From a bacterium A37T11 (GTDB lineage: Bacteria > Bacteroidota > Bacteroidia > Sphingobacteriales > Sphingobacteriaceae): a stretch of 64,000 bases of DNA. A model generated the notes under the pieces. The model did no database searches. It was not told where the DNA came from and saw only the letters and a list, made by a program, of their open reading frames with translations. The position numbers and the translations under genes are program-made. Location of the stretch: assembly GCA_900109895.1 (NCBI GenBank), contig FOBR01000011.1:1-64000 (forward strand). The letters run 5' to 3'. Position 1 is the first letter of the stretch. Each line of letters begins with the position of its first letter. This document shows positions 56,198 through 63,260 of the stretch, one piece after another.

Positions 56198-56515
56198 TTG
56201 GAATTTAAAAAAGTAATCTTTTATTTATTGGCCTTTTGCCTCTTACTCACCTCCTGTGGACAGCCGGAAACCCCGATTGGCAACACCTTGATCCGGAAAA
56301 AGATGGCGTGTTTGGCATCAGCGACGACCGGGCTTATGATGAATTGCTTAGAGACAAAACTGGCACATCAGTCATTGTCGCCGTGCTGGATGGGGGTGCT
56401 GATACGGGTCATGAAGACCTAAAATCAATACTTTGGATAAATAATAAGAAAAAACAAGCAATGGTATCGATGACGATGGCAACGGTTACATTGATGGCGG
56501 TCCGTAGGCAAAAGG
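56198..56515 (+). pseudogene. Subtilase (S8 peptidase) lipoprotein, 5' fragment with frameshifts
   Basis: TTG at 56198 opens a lipoprotein signal (KKVIFYLLAFCLLLTSCG). After a shift near 56270 a second frame carries WQHLDPEKDGVFGISDDRAY and the S8 catalytic Asp region VIVAVLDGGADTGHEDLKS. A further shift near 56455 leads to GIDDDGNGYIDGG, the loop that follows in subtilases of this group. The His and Ser regions are absent. Two frameshifts plus truncation make it a clear pseudogene. Confidence 0.75.
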
Positions 56516-56839
56516 CTCATTGTTCACCTCCCAACCCAAACAGCGAACGCAGAAACGAAGGTTCTACGTATTGATGGACACGGATTTCTTTACTTTCCAA
56601 GTGATAACTTACGAATACGCTGCCTTCATAATTACCTGAACTGGCTTGGGAAGTAGCAGGCAACAGGTCATTTTTTACCTGCTATAACTCCCCACATATT
56701 CTCCCAATTTGAAATAATTCGAACAGAAAATAAATTTCCGAAAATCGCTTCCCCGGCAATTTTTTCCCTCGATTATCTTGTTTATTTTTACACTTTCAAA
56801 TCAAATTTGAAATTGACGGTTTAACGATAAACGAATTTT
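56516..56839. other. Intergenic stretch with an inverted repeat before the Crp-like gene
   Basis: No gene seen. TTCAAAT-CAA-ATTTGAA at 56795-56811 is a perfect 7-bp inverted repeat about 30 bp upstream of the Crp-like start and could be its operator. Its spacing differs from the classic FNR/CRP box. Confidence 0.4.
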
Positions 56840-58515: not shown

Positions 58516-58803
58516 ATGGTTTATCAGATGAGAATACATGTACGATTGCTTGTCAATTTGGACAAAAACGTGAGCAAACTGCTCATCCTGCTGGAGCGGC
58601 TGGAAAAACAGCACCAACCTGTTTTATCACACGAAGAAGAACTGGCAGACCGCGCAGACACCGAGTGGGTGCTGGAATTTCTGGGCATCAGCCTGAACAC
58701 CTTTAAGACCCATGTACGCTATGTGCAGCTGACCCCCAAAATCATTGGCGCCCGGGAATACTACTCCAAGCAGGAAGTTTACCGGATGATGCGCCGGAAG
58801 TAG
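58516..58803 (+). CDS. Small helix-turn-helix protein
   Basis: The protein is 95 aa. An N-terminal helical part (LLVNLDKNVSKLLILLERLE) is followed by a MerR/excisionase-like HTH (WVLEFLGISLNTFKTHVRYV) and the ending YYSKQEVYRMMRRK. Proteins of this size and type are common regulators on Bacteroidota conjugative elements and prophage remnants. An in-frame start at 58525 is possible. It may help control the adjacent cassette. Confidence 0.65.
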   Translation: MVYQMRIHVRLLVNLDKNVSKLLILLERLEKQHQPVLSHEEELADRADTEWVLEFLGISLNTFKTHVRYVQLTPKIIGAREYYSKQEVYRMMRRK

Positions 58804-59107: not shown

Positions 59108-59153
59108 TGTCAAAATCTGTCAATCACTGTCAACCGCTGTGAAGTTTTGTCAA
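59108..59153 (+). repeat. Five TGTCAA repeats at exact 10-bp spacing
   Basis: TGTCAA begins at 59108, 59118, 59128, 59138 (as TGTGAA) and 59148. The 10-bp period puts every copy on the same face of the helix. The array ends 3 bp before the -33 box of the cassette promoter, where an activator array would be expected. The intervening bases differ, so it is not a plain tandem copy. Confidence 0.85.
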
Positions 59154-59156
59154 ATA

Positions 59157-59187
59157 TTTGTAATACAGCTATTTGTGTATATGTTTG
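59157..59187 (+). promoter_or_regulatory. Consensus Bacteroidota promoter of the lysis-like cassette
   Basis: TTTG at 59157-59160, 19 nt, then TATGTTTG at 59180-59187, an exact match to TTTG-N19-TAnnTTTG. Transcription should start near 59192-59195, at the first base of the following hairpin. Confidence 0.75.
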
Positions 59188-59191
59188 CTCC

Positions 59192-59224
59192 GTGATCAAT
59201 GGAGATCACCTTAAAAAAGGAGGT
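59192..59224 (+). promoter_or_regulatory. 5'-UTR hairpin and consensus Shine-Dalgarno
   Basis: GTGATC-AATGGA-GATCAC (59192-59209) would form a hairpin at the extreme 5' end of the mRNA, a place where stems protect from decay. AAGGAGGT at 59217-59224 lies 4 nt before the ATG at 59229. Such a full Shine-Dalgarno is rare in Bacteroidota and rather phage-like. Confidence 0.65.
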
Positions 59225-59228
59225 AATT

Positions 59229-59615
59229 ATGAGACAAGTATTCACAGCATTCCGGGCAGCAGTGATGCCACAGCTACCGGAAGCATTAGACCTGCGGTGG
59301 TGGGCATGGCAGGGATGGATCCCGGTATTGACAGTCGCGCAATGGGCGCTATTAACTGTACTGTTCCTAAAAAGCGGCGAGATCATCCGGCAATACGACC
59401 CCACTGCTGGTTTAATAGGCGGCGACGTGATCAATGCCCTGATCTTATGTCTGCTCATCGTAGACAGTTTTGCCGTAGGCGCCTGGCTGCTCATGCAGCT
59501 GATCAAAAAAAGTTTTATTAAAAATGTATCCGCATGTTTAGAAACAAAAATCTGTCTATTATCCTATTGGGGCTTGGTCTTGCTCTTTGTCTGGGTGTTC
59601 TCACTGGTGGTGTAA
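59229..59615 (+). CDS. Small membrane protein, holin-like
   Basis: The protein is 128 aa, started at the ATG behind the strong Shine-Dalgarno (an earlier in-frame ATG at 59199 would use the hairpin as coding sequence). Three membrane segments are seen at about 29-47 (GWIPVLTVAQWALLTVLFL), 68-91 and 107-128. There is no recognised family signature. Small size, three helices and the place directly before, and overlapping, a peptidoglycan hydrolase gene are the layout of holin-endolysin pairs. The holin role is an inference from architecture. Confidence 0.6.
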   Translation: MRQVFTAFRAAVMPQLPEALDLRWWAWQGWIPVLTVAQWALLTVLFLKSGEIIRQYDPTAGLIGGDVINALILCLLIVDSFAVGAWLLMQLIKKSFIKNVSACLETKICLLSYWGLVLLFVWVFSLVV

Positions 59616-60199
59616 CCGTCATCCCGAGTGAAGGCAGAGGTAGGGAAATGTGGGGAATCGAGGGATCTTCTAAGTGCGGAGGTAGGGTTTTTAATAGCAG
59701 GGATTCTTCGATTCCACTGCGTTCCACTCAGAATGACGCCAGAAGAAGATTGCAGCAGATCTACACGGCCGAAATTGGCGTACGTGAAGCCACCGGCCAT
59801 AACGATGGTACCAGAGTGCAGGAATATTTGCAATACGTCCATCTAAAAGGTAATTTTTCCTACTGCGCAGCCTTCACATGCTGGGCGCTAGGAAAGGCAG
59901 GTATAAATAATCCCAAAAATGGCTGGGCGCCAGCTATGTTCCCGGAAAAGAGGGTGGTGTGGAAAGGAGGGAAGCATAATGATGCGATTAATCGCGTCTT
60001 TACAGGCGACGTATTCGGCATCTATTTCTCCAACCTCAAACGCATTGGCCACTGCGGGTTTGTAGACAGTTGGGACCGCACCTGGTGCATAACGGTAGAA
60101 GCCAATACCACAGACATCCGTGCCGGCCCTGGTGAAGGTGTATTCAAAAAGAAACGATTGGTCAAGACCATTTATAAGGTGGCTGATTGGGTTAATTAG
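59534..60199 (+). CDS. CHAP/NlpC-like peptidoglycan hydrolase (endolysin-like)
   Basis: The protein is 221 aa and overlaps the preceding gene by 82 bp in another frame. An N-terminal hydrophobic segment (LSIILLGLGLALCLGVLTGG) acts as signal or anchor. Residues about 29-68 are encoded by a 120-bp inverted-repeat insertion. The catalytic domain follows: IGVREATGHNDGTRVQEYLQ, the candidate nucleophile Cys111 in NFSYCAAFTCWALGKAG, and candidate His173 in RIGHCGFVDSW. It should cut peptide cross-links in cell wall. Phage endolysin or a domesticated hydrolase are both possible; no phage structural genes are nearby. Confidence 0.75.
   Translation: MFRNKNLSIILLGLGLALCLGVLTGGVTVIPSEGRGREMWGIEGSSKCGGRVFNSRDSSIPLRSTQNDARRRLQQIYTAEIGVREATGHNDGTRVQEYLQYVHLKGNFSYCAAFTCWALGKAGINNPKNGWAPAMFPEKRVVWKGGKHNDAINRVFTGDVFGIYFSNLKRIGHCGFVDSWDRTWCITVEANTTDIRAGPGEGVFKKKRLVKTIYKVADWVN
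59618..59737 (+). mobile_element. 120-bp inverted-repeat (MITE-like) insertion inside the hydrolase gene
   Basis: The left end GTCATCCCGAGTG and right end CACTCAGAATGAC are imperfect inverted repeats; further inside, GAATCGAGGGATCTTC mirrors GATTCTTCGATTCC. Such GTCATyCyGAGTG elements are scattered in many Bacteroidota genomes (family knowledge). Its length of exactly 40 codons, without a stop, keeps the gene in frame between the signal segment and the catalytic domain. Confidence 0.7.
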
Positions 60200-60257
60200 T
60201 TCGTTGGTTATTAGTGTAATATCAATTACGATCAATTTACAATATTCACTTAAATTA

Positions 60258-60379
60258 TTAACGCTGCCGGTCAAGCGAACGGCCTCGGGATAATAGCGAA
60301 AGGAGATCCCGGTGAGCCGTAGGTGAACCGAAGCTCCTGTAGCGGTTATCCCAGCCGTGAGATGACCGGCCAGCGTTAA
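60258..60379 (+). ncRNA. Approximately 122-nt nested hairpin RNA or structured leader
   Basis: Outer stem: TTAACGCTG-CCGGTCA (60258-60273) with TGACCGG-C-CAGCGTTAA (60363-60379), 16 pairs and one bulge. Inside: CGGC with GCCG, GGGATAA (60287-60293) with TTATCCC (60346-60352), AGGAG (60301-60305) with CTCCT (60334-60338), CGGT with ACCG. An alternative local stem CGGGAT/ATCCCG (60286-60291 with 60306-60311) would exclude the GGGATAA pairing. It sits in the 219-bp gap between the hydrolase and FN3 genes. No family recognised; an mRNA leader, a small RNA or a DNA cruciform are all possible. Confidence 0.6.
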
Positions 60380-60418
60380 AAAATTAATTAATTCACATTT
60401 AAATTAATACTAAAAAAA

Positions 60419-61051
60419 ATGAAAAGATTCGCAGTAAACAATTTCAAAAAATTAGGGGATGACCAGTTGGTCACCGAGGTTAAAACAATTATCGAGGCGA
60501 TGACCGTGAATGTGGTGCTGTTTGCGACGCCGTCGCCGGCACTGGCCGATGTGCAGATAGCACTGACGGATTTTGAAGGAAAACTGGCGGTGTCCAGGCG
60601 CCGGGGTAATCCGATGGAGACCAGTGTTAAGAATGAAAGCAAACTCGTGTTGGCAGAGCTGATGCGAAAGCTGGCCTTTTATGTAAACGATGTAGCGGCA
60701 GGTACGCTGAGCGTATTGCTAGCTTCAGGCTTTAAGTTAAACCAAAGCCTGGCCAATGGTTTGCCACCGGAAACGCCGGATGGGCTAAGGCTCCGTGAGG
60801 GCCGGCAAAAAGGCCAGATCAGGCTGGACTTTAGCCCGGTGGCCACCGCACGCGCGTATGAATACCGCTTTACTTCACAATTAACTTCTGATGGCAAGCC
60901 AGTGTGGGATGAACGTTTCCATACCACTACATCATTCAACAACGTATTGTCGCCTGTGGAAGCAGGTCTTACCTATTATGTACAGGTACGGGCGCTGAAT
61001 GCGCATGGGGCGAGTGATTGGAGTTATGTGCTGGATTATATTGGAAGGTAA
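60419..61051 (+). CDS. FN3-domain protein of unknown function
   Basis: The protein is 210 aa without a signal peptide. The N-terminal half is helical (FKKLGDDQLVTEVKTIIEAM, ELMRKLAFYVNDVAAGTLSV). The C-terminal half (about 118-207) is a fibronectin type III fold (GQIRLDFSPVATARAYEYRF, GLTYYVQVRALNAHGASDWS). Similar proteins of about 210 aa recur in Bacteroidota without known function. The lack of a signal within a cassette of membrane and wall-active proteins suggests a cytoplasmic cargo or a protein released by the neighbours. That is speculative. Confidence 0.75.
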   Translation: MKRFAVNNFKKLGDDQLVTEVKTIIEAMTVNVVLFATPSPALADVQIALTDFEGKLAVSRRRGNPMETSVKNESKLVLAELMRKLAFYVNDVAAGTLSVLLASGFKLNQSLANGLPPETPDGLRLREGRQKGQIRLDFSPVATARAYEYRFTSQLTSDGKPVWDERFHTTTSFNNVLSPVEAGLTYYVQVRALNAHGASDWSYVLDYIGR

Positions 61052-61058
61052 AGGGAAC

Positions 61059-61517
61059 ATGAAAAAAATATTGTTATTCTTCCTCCTTCTCACAGGCTGC
61101 GCTGGGTTTAAAGCGACTAATCTGCATACGAATAGTGCTAAAGAGCAGGAGCAACGGGTGTACGATAGCCTGCAGACACAACAGGTGAAAAGTAGTTTTA
61201 ACCTCCTGGAGCATCAGTGGCAACAGGATAGTGTGACCTACAAAGCGATGATCGGTGTCAGCGGTACAGGAGCCAGGATCTGGGTGACGGGCAGTGGACA
61301 GAAAGTCAGCCTTTCCCAAAAACAGCAGGATAGTAGCCGGACGGATAGCCTGGCTACGCACATCCAGTTAAATCAGGAACATAAACAGCAGGAACAGCAA
61401 ACGGTGAAGAACACGAGGCAATTCAGCTTGAACATTTACTGGGTGTTACTTTCCATCGGGTTGCTGGCCCTGGCTGTTTATTTTGTACGCAAATACTGGC
61501 CAAAAAGCCCGGGATAG
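61059..61517 (+). CDS. Lipoprotein with C-terminal membrane helix, unimolecular-spanin-like
   Basis: The protein is 152 aa from the ATG at 61059, 8 bp after the FN3 stop (an earlier in-frame ATG at 60999 lacks a signal). Lipobox LLTGC (Cys14), a long Gln-rich probably coiled-coil middle, then one helix near the C-terminus (YWVLLSIGLLALAVYFVR) and a basic tail. An N-terminal lipid anchor for the outer membrane plus a C-terminal inner-membrane helix is the defining plan of phage u-spanins, which fuse the two membranes. No sequence family recognised; the role is inferred from architecture and the holin/hydrolase neighbours. Confidence 0.6.
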   Translation: MKKILLFFLLLTGCAGFKATNLHTNSAKEQEQRVYDSLQTQQVKSSFNLLEHQWQQDSVTYKAMIGVSGTGARIWVTGSGQKVSLSQKQQDSSRTDSLATHIQLNQEHKQQEQQTVKNTRQFSLNIYWVLLSIGLLALAVYFVRKYWPKSPG

Positions 61518-62621: not shown

Positions 62622-63260
62622 ATGGATTTCAGACAAGCGATACAGCCATTCTCCGGACAGCCCATCTATCATTGGCTGTTGATGTCTTTATTAAAGGGCT
62701 ATAAGCGTCCTAATGATAAGATCCACGAATTGTTGCAGAGCGGAACGTTGGAAGCGGTGAAGAAGGGCTTATATGTGGTGGGAAATAAGCTTGGACTACA
62801 ACAGCCAGAACCTTTTTTATTGTCCAATCATCTTTATGGACCCAGTTATGTTTCAATGGATGCGGCATTGTCTCATTACGGCCTAATACCTGAACGGGTA
62901 TATGAAATTTCAGGTGTAACAGCCAAGATATCCAGACAATTTATCACTAAGCAAGGGGTGTTTAACTATATTCATCTCCCGATGCCCTACTATTCTTTTG
63001 GTATACAACAGGTAAAGATAGCTGACCGCCAGTTTGCAATGATGGCTTGCGCCGAAAAGGCGCTCATGGATAAGGTGGTCACAACATCCGGGCTGGTATT
63101 GCGGAGCAGGAAGGGAGCCTTTGAATACCTAATTGAAAACCTCCGTATGGAAGAAGGGCAACTAAAAGAGATGAATCTATCTATTATGAAGGAGTGGAGC
63201 CGTAATGCCCCCAAGAAGGAGAGCCTATTGTTTGTTATTGACATGATCGGAAATTTATGA
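62622..63260 (+). CDS. abiEi: AbiEi-type antitoxin/transcriptional regulator
   Basis: The protein is 212 aa. The N-terminal winged-helix region (YHWLLMSLLKGYKRPNDKIH, LQSGTLEAVKKGLYVVG) and the body with GPSYVSMDAALSHYGLIPER, FNYIHLPMPYYSFGIQQVKI and CAEKALMDKVVTTSGL fit the AbiEi/Rv2827c-like antitoxin family. In type IV systems it represses the operon and counteracts the AbiEii nucleotidyltransferase. Its stop overlaps the toxin start (ATGA). Confidence 0.85.
   Translation: MDFRQAIQPFSGQPIYHWLLMSLLKGYKRPNDKIHELLQSGTLEAVKKGLYVVGNKLGLQQPEPFLLSNHLYGPSYVSMDAALSHYGLIPERVYEISGVTAKISRQFITKQGVFNYIHLPMPYYSFGIQQVKIADRQFAMMACAEKALMDKVVTTSGLVLRSRKGAFEYLIENLRMEEGQLKEMNLSIMKEWSRNAPKKESLLFVIDMIGNL

Follow-up and report, generated by a model that had tools for sequence, protein, structure and literature searches.

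A conserved, phage-derived module of three genes amplified in the Sphingobacteriaceae bacterium A37T11: a candidate programme for regulated envelope opening

The operon and its paralogues

The window analysed in this study, a 64,000-nucleotide stretch of contig FOBR01000011.1 from the Sphingobacteriaceae bacterium A37T11 (assembly GCA_900109895.1), contains near its end an operon encoding a small three-segment transmembrane (TM) protein, a cell wall hydrolase, a fibronectin type III (FN3) protein and a lipoprotein. The TM, hydrolase and lipoprotein genes form a module that is conserved, under selection, phage-derived and amplified in this genome. An original prediction had described the four genes as a lysis-like cassette, and they indeed lie at the place and in the order claimed, on one strand and complete in the window copy, with the hydrolase gene overlapping the membrane gene as predicted. 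The unit extends further than had been described, because a helix-turn-helix (HTH) gene and a set of repeats upstream were missed. The features of the locus are as follows:

58516–58803, + strand: small HTH_17/excisionase-like DNA-binding protein (P0005; PHROG 668 HTH, E 0.0021)
59108–59153, no strand: TGTCAA array of five copies (one mismatched) at exact 10-bp spacing, read in the sequence and by Tandem Repeats Finder (TRF)
59229–59615, + strand: 128-amino-acid three-segment membrane (TM) protein, holin-like (P0001; family A3; AAGGAGG upstream)
59534–60199, + strand: CHAP-type peptidoglycan hydrolase with an N-terminal hydrophobic segment (PHROG endolysin; CHAP matches of paralogues)
59534–59615, + strand: 82-bp dual-coding overlap of the TM and hydrolase genes, with a hydrophobic segment encoded in both frames
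60232–60370, no strand: dispersed repeat between the hydrolase and FN3 genes, with many similar stretches elsewhere in the genome
60419–61051, + strand: slot protein (here the FN3 protein), signal-less, with a helical N-half and an FN3 C-half (structure model and FN3 matches)
61059–61517, + strand: lipoprotein with a C-terminal membrane segment and u-spanin topology (lipobox Cys, C-terminal hydrophobic segment, basic tail)

The TGTCAA array begins exactly at position 59108, the start coordinate of the original prediction. The dispersed repeat is outside the mechanism proposed below.

Searches of the A37T11 genome (5.09 Mb, 60 contigs) revealed many relatives of this locus. With the DNA of the stretch as query, 61 matches were obtained, many of which fall on the dispersed repeat; protein searches gave 23 matches for the hydrolase (E 0.001) and 17 for the membrane protein (E 1). 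Nineteen further regions were fetched, making 20 own loci together with the window; all 20 carry an FN3 gene, and the hydrolase and the membrane gene are each present in 18. There are 18 TM–hydrolase–FN3 cassettes, window included, with the lipoprotein intact in 16, absent in L012 and truncated in L021. The two FN3 loci that lack a hydrolase (L024 and L025) are the only such loci in the whole set of 114 described below. The same genome also holds an operon of the order DUF6266–TM–hydrolase–lipoprotein (L168), a copy cut by a contig end (L169), an HTH–FN3 pair (L170) and three fragments (L171–L173, the last also at a contig end). Profile counts within this genome are lower bounds, as only 20 candidates were scored. 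The own hydrolases are 46–65% identical to the window copy, and 14 of the 18 fall into one clade (support 100/99), which indicates that most copies were amplified within this lineage.

Beyond A37T11, and at the limits used, the hydrolase was detected in 45, the membrane protein in 33 and the FN3 protein in 25 of 151 genomes of the family (own genome included), and a scan of the phylum found the hydrolase in 8 of 395 genomes, again counting A37T11. The named external loci, the best 80 of 130 found, come from Sphingobacterium, Pedobacter, Parapedobacter, Daejeonella, Sinomicrobium and one further family member. External loci were chosen by the hydrolase, whose presence there is by construction, and removal of duplicates reduced 120 loci to 114 (20 own and 94 others, the latter nearly all from Sphingobacteriaceae). 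Genes were called as longest open reading frames rather than with a trained caller. The hydrolase is present in 112 of the 114 loci (by choice), the membrane gene in 111, the lipoprotein in 101 and the HTH gene in 76; among the 94 external loci, the hydrolase is accompanied by the membrane gene in 93 cases and by the lipoprotein in 84. All 101 loci holding the three genes keep the order TM–hydrolase–lipoprotein. The original prediction had named conservation of the order without phage genes as support. By eye, the own-genome copies had no phage gene in their flanks (about 3.5 kb on the upstream and 2.5 kb on the downstream side), and the form without phage genes dominates among the fetched loci. 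The homologues are not confined to prophages, and the membrane protein and the lipoprotein accompany the hydrolase in nearly all loci, so that neither observation named as contrary to the prediction was made.

Ratios of nonsynonymous to synonymous substitution (dN/dS), calculated for 18 close pairs with the overlap left out, were 0.07–0.48 wherever computable: 0.07–0.36 for the TM gene (16 of 18 pairs), 0.08–0.48 for the hydrolase (all 18) and 0.20–0.42 for the lipoprotein (10 of 18, the rest being saturated or without a copy). All three genes are under purifying selection.

Envelope proteins and their phage relatives

Three hydrophobic segments are present in 106 of 111 homologues of the membrane protein, and their mean content of lysine plus arginine is 4.8 at the N-terminus, 0.6 in loop 1, 3.1 in loop 2 and 0.13 at the C-terminus, from which an N-in/C-out topology is predicted. 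In 111 of 112 loci the TM gene precedes that of the hydrolase, in a few of them at a distance of 0.9–2.6 kb. The overlap of the two genes is exactly 82 bp in 92 of 111 loci and in 15 of the 18 own copies, the other own copies having 79 or 85 bp. A small membrane protein encoded beside a wall hydrolase has the gene context of a holin, and the TM protein may act as one.

The window hydrolase matches a PHROG endolysin family (E 2.1e-7; 2.3e-12 for a relative), and the CHAP family is matched by all 18 paralogues at E ≤ 0.05 (best 1.3e-8). Cys111, His173, Glu189 and Asn191 are invariant in the 18 own paralogues; together with the paralogue profile and the PHROG match, the invariant Cys and His place the enzyme in the CHAP/endolysin family with a Cys/His active site. 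A hydrophobic segment lies within the first 110 residues in 107 of 112 hydrolases. When the hydrolase profile was compared with solved structures, no credible match was obtained, and two scorpion toxins (E 1.7–1.9) were taken as chance. The linker of the window hydrolase has about 35 extra residues, encoded at 59616–59740, where the DNA reads by eye as an in-frame inserted GTCATCCCGAG...AGAATGACG repeat; some other copies have odd linkers too. The original prediction had drawn its roles from topology and gene order, not from sequence families. This holds for the TM protein and the lipoprotein, whereas the hydrolase (CHAP/endolysin) and the FN3 protein do match known families.

A lipobox was recognized in 91 of 101 lipoprotein homologues (permissive pattern), none of which has Asp at position +2. 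A C-terminal hydrophobic segment follows in 75 of the 91 by a simple threshold, and most of the misses that were printed end in a W-rich hydrophobic stretch. The protein combines a lipoprotein signal and a C-terminal membrane helix, the layout of phage unimolecular spanins (u-spanins; PMC6139136). Between the lipobox and the membrane segment, 75 of 91 homologues have no cysteine and 16 have one or two. Topology and position fit a u-spanin, and the lipoprotein is a candidate for this role.

Relatives of the module occur among phage genes. On the phage-like Persicobacter plasmid CP012855.1, a TM gene (2.4e-10) overlaps a hydrolase gene (2.2e-30), and the genes beside them include a portal-like one (9.3e-5) and a terminase (PHROG 2.7e-14). 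The prophage contig L157, from a genome of the phylum, carries a hydrolase (PHROG endolysin 1.3e-14) and a lipoprotein (2.4e-9) together with phage genes for the major head protein (3.6e-41), for head-tail adaptors and for tail completion, and on the IMG/VR contig L165 a TM gene (1.2e-5) overlaps a hydrolase gene (6e-38) by 79 bp. Hydrolase relatives also stand beside a lipoprotein gene in L158, L160 and L163 (that of L163 being unmatched by the profile), where the phage nature was judged by eye. Six phage-context rows group together in the hydrolase tree, with moderate support (78/84) and long branches. Given these homologues, we interpret the triad most readily as a lysis module that the host took over from phage, and the Sphingobacteriaceae copies as a domesticated branch of it.

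The window proteins themselves had no match in 50,697 phage records (hydrolase and FN3 protein at E 0.001; TM protein and lipoprotein at E 0.01). One hydrolase relative gave eight distant matches in phage records (29–36%), the window hydrolase gave 13 matches in plasmids (27–32%), and viral contigs yielded six distant hydrolase relatives with an alignment as query (25–32%) and three for one relative (35–36%). Phage or plasmid cargo was therefore rejected as an account of the locus, the window proteins being unmatched in phage records and the matches of relatives distant. A complete prophage in the A37T11 genome is likewise unsupported, as no phage genes were seen beside the copies and the single terminase family searched (phrog_2) had one weak match, on another contig (C26). 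Homology of the TM, hydrolase and lipoprotein genes ties the operon to phage lysis and supports the predicted domesticated programme for lysis or release; the earlier observation is confirmed, and its interpretation appears essentially right.

Upstream region and exchangeable slot proteins

An HTH profile matches a protein in 76 of 114 loci, including 16 of the 20 own ones. Relatives of the HTH protein match Pfam HTH_17, and for one relative a PHROG excisionase/regulator was matched (2.7e-6); the window protein had no Pfam match at E 0.1. A degenerate array with a period of 10–11, 21–22 or 42 bp is located between the HTH gene and the operon. In the window it was found by TRF at 59117–59140 (period 10, score 34), and with z 4.5 at period 10 in the gap it stands at the weak end. 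The z-score uses a fixed match rate of 0.27, and a shuffle control was run for this reason: z ≥ 5 was reached in 50 of 73 HTH–operon gaps and in 12 of 2,920 dinucleotide shuffles. Forty-six of these 50 arrays have a period of 10, 11, 21, 22, 33 or 42 bp. When every period between 9 and 44 bp was scanned, a best z > 6 was obtained on the upstream side of 58 of 112 loci (46 at 11, 21, 22 or 42 bp) and on the downstream side of 13 of 109 (six at these periods), and the best helical-period array of the upstream 4.3 kb falls inside the HTH–operon gap in 57 of 75 loci, with 10.4 expected by length.

Periods differ with the operon type. Among the 50 gap arrays, FN3 operons have 21 or 42 bp in 16 of 18 cases, and DUF6266 operons and C13 operons have 11, 22 or 33 bp in 27 of 31. 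The motif varies between cassettes and is common to relatives, for example TTACC in some Pedobacter and TTCGGG in some Sphingobacterium (22 arrays, by eye), and several of these 22 printed arrays appear by eye to end in inverted copies. A histidine kinase gene lies upstream on the same strand in 23 of 114 loci and a LytTR response regulator gene in 25. Other upstream genes include one for a 318-amino-acid protein with no Pfam match (L125:1243-2199 and relatives), upstream and on the same strand in all 18 loci holding it, and, in some cassettes, two genes that precede the HTH gene, one for a rhomboid protease (Pfam match in L017; by eye in L177) and one for an Xre-like regulator. The small protein family C12 (L081:4892-5296, L019), also with no Pfam match, is encoded near a LytTR membrane protein in several cassettes.

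The slot protein is of variable family. The window FN3 protein was modelled (predicted local distance difference test, pLDDT, 91.8) as helices followed by an FN3-type sandwich, and a DUF6266 protein gave the same arrangement (pLDDT 85.9). The Pfam FN3 match of the window protein is weak and below the cut-off; solved structures with FN3 domains were matched both by profile and by fold. No hydrophobic N-terminus was seen in the slot protein. FN3, DUF6266 or one of two further families is carried by 105 of the 112 hydrolase loci, with the FN3 gene downstream of the hydrolase in 27 and upstream in 18. Using same-strand labels on the hydrolase tree, we counted 14 label changes for DUF6266 and 13 for FN3, of which well-supported branches force at least 11 and at least 10, respectively. 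The slot partner is swapped between operons.

DUF6266 is frequently multi-copy and occurs in 67 of the 151 genomes of the family, some of which have no hydrolase. Twenty further slot loci (16 DUF6266 and four FN3) were chosen mostly where no hydrolase matched; in 12 of them the small membrane protein belonging to an alternative module is present, accompanied by DUF5675 in 11, one has the TM–hydrolase–lipoprotein triad, and seven have the slot gene alone. DUF5675 relatives were found in 144 phage records; among the 12 listed, nine are annotated as hypothetical protein and three (from two phages) as transpeptidase or L,D-carboxypeptidase/transpeptidase. One front end combined with two unrelated wall-enzyme modules favours a payload, and the data fit a slot protein served by interchangeable release modules. 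The FN3 protein, for which the original prediction had allowed either role, would accordingly be cargo rather than modulator. No paper with DUF6266 turned up in the literature searched, which covered a minority of subscription papers and no preprints. In the phage record OP209177.1 (L155), a DUF6266 match of 24% identity was kept as a lead; this 8-kb record has a CHAP gene and a Rep-like gene next to its three DUF6266 genes.

The AraC-like regulators noted in the original prediction do flank the operon. They recur beside few loci and on both strands, and were for this reason dropped as conserved partners. Elsewhere in the window, positions 62622–63260 encode a protein similar to AbiEi-type antitoxins (type IV toxin-antitoxin systems; E 1e-5, below the cut-off), and a short open reading frame at 56236–56574, which looks like the beginning of a subtilisin-type protease, breaks off.

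Proposed function, alternatives and known systems

We propose that the locus belongs to a set of about twenty paralogous operons which derive from a phage lysis module and have been kept by the host without other phage genes. The HTH protein might bind the helically phased array and either keep the operon off or switch it all-or-none, and in some loci the histidine kinase/LytTR pair could feed this switch. Once the operon is on, the slot protein (FN3 or DUF6266), lacking a signal sequence, would accumulate in the cytoplasm. The TM protein would then depolarise or perforate the inner membrane, the membrane-anchored CHAP enzyme would cut peptidoglycan, and the lipoprotein, with its lipid in the outer membrane and its C-terminal helix in the inner membrane, could open the outer membrane in the manner of a u-spanin. 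The cell, probably one of a minority, would open and release the slot protein and other content; opening of the envelope, any death of the cell by it and the partner as released product are all predicted from this scheme. On balance we consider it probable that the operon is a phage-derived lysis operon for regulated envelope opening that releases the slot protein, whether lytically or not. A bolder version, which we put forward tentatively and hold to be rather doubtful, is that up to twenty or more mutually insulated programmes, each with its own regulator–iteron pair, are fired separately and all-or-none in few cells to release their own FN3-fold proteins, while the front end (regulator, array and payload) and the back end (two unrelated phage-derived modules) are exchanged like cassettes.

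Several observations weigh against a regulated lysis operon. The HTH profile has no match in 38 of 114 loci, 23 of 73 HTH–operon gaps lack an array at z ≥ 5, and the window gap, being below this cut, is not among the 50 counted. The window TM protein has no holin family match in Pfam, NCBIfam or PHROGs, nor do single TM relatives in PHROGs or Pfam, and we therefore do not file the protein as a holin. Class I holins differ in topology from the predicted N-in/C-out arrangement. The 96-amino-acid membrane gene that overlaps the hydrolase gene of L157 is not matched by the TM profiles. Taken alone, the window hydrolase is below the cut-offs of Pfam CHAP (E 0.022) and NCBIfam TIGR02594, and it may be exported independently of a holin, since it carries a membrane segment at its own N-terminus. 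The slot genes that stand alone (7 of 20) imply that a release module is dispensable for the slot protein. The 16 of 91 lipoproteins with periplasmic cysteines are unlike the phage u-spanins, of which 0 of 58 has such a cysteine (PMC6139136). Carrying a lethal programme twenty times over would have a high cost, and this speaks for a function that is non-lytic or only very rarely called upon.

The alternative that survives best, which we nevertheless regard as unlikely, is a non-lytic device: the TM protein, the anchored hydrolase and the doubly anchored lipoprotein could build a lasting conduit, a locally restricted opening through which the slot protein is exported or displayed at the surface. 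The hydrophobic segment in 107 of 112 hydrolases, a lipoprotein that would span the periplasm, the roughly 20 copies in one genome and the non-lytic mode claimed for type 10 secretion (PMC9527704) all agree with such a device, yet its homologues lie among phage genes and nothing recognized in the set resembles an outer-membrane channel. Abortive infection, in which the operon kills infected cells and the HTH/array unit senses phage, seems improbable. It would explain a lysis module without a phage, the many copies with different arrays and the phage-like HTH protein (the excisionase/regulator match of a relative), but leaves the slot protein unexplained; the neighbours are SusC/D, FecI/R-like and two-component genes (by eye), and none of eight proteins had a PADLOC match at E 0.01, on which ground a defence island was also rejected.

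A selfish or mobile cassette, moved by the excisionase-like HTH protein and the array with the lysis genes as cargo or addiction genes, is more improbable still. Multiple copies, repeatedly swapped parts and iteron-like arrays are compatible with it; however, the own copies are too divergent for recent jumps, the array is placed ahead of the operon instead of at both of its ends, and no recombinase or transposase was recognized by eye among neighbours recurring in at least five loci. Decaying prophage remnants without present function are the least credible account, for despite the phage origin and the truncated copies (L021, L171 and L172), dN/dS is well below 1, the catalytic residues are invariant, the overlap is kept, and the copies have their own regulators and arrays with no other phage genes seen.

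The regulated lysis operon remains our preferred account, and it suggests that bacteria have turned a viral lysis kit into a controlled programme of release or self-destruction. The system is spread through a Bacteroidota family, offering many natural variants, internal replicates in one genome and phage relatives that are still recognizable. Its HTH protein and array are an obvious regulatory handle and supply a set of candidate regulator–operator pairs. With this system one can test whether programmed lysis is maintained in bacteria as a strategy for public goods or for release, and it also yields hypotheses on what DUF6266 and DUF5675 do.

Judged by titles and the openings of abstracts, none of the papers listed in our search of the same literature describes this system; the host-run lysis cassettes in the cited papers come from a few Gammaproteobacteria and Clostridia. 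In Escherichia coli K-12, lysis genes of the defective prophage DLP12 act on the host envelope in vesicle production, and the module lies inside a recognized defective prophage (PMC7918800). An action on the host envelope is also what we propose here. DLP12 also differs in copy number and is not known to have a slot protein or arrays.

The cassette of T1-type phages consists of a pinholin, a signal-arrest-release (SAR) endolysin and, as its last gene, the u-spanin gp11 (PMC6139136). The operon described here resembles it in ending with a lipoprotein that has a C-terminal membrane helix and in an enzyme with an N-terminal membrane segment. It differs in its CHAP-type enzyme, in being host-encoded beside its own regulator genes, and in a TM protein and lipoprotein that are unmatched in the phage records searched.

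There is a close likeness to the type 10 secretion or lysis cassettes of Serratia marcescens and Yersinia entomophaga (PMC10847048, PMC9527704), in which holin or holin-like, wall hydrolase and spanin or spanin-like genes outside a prophage serve protein release, in Y. entomophaga from a specialized subpopulation that lyses. The same gene content is present in A37T11, with holin and spanin identity by topology only, and by analogy the operon may work like type 10 secretion, to which it would belong by gene content and a predicted secretion role. As judged from descriptions rather than from sequence comparison, it is set apart from the Serratia and Yersinia cassettes by its occurrence in Bacteroidota, its unimolecular spanin-like lipoprotein, a hydrolase that has its own membrane segment and whose gene overlaps the TM gene by 82 bp, and about 20 copies in one genome with differing arrays and a small FN3-fold slot protein within the operon.

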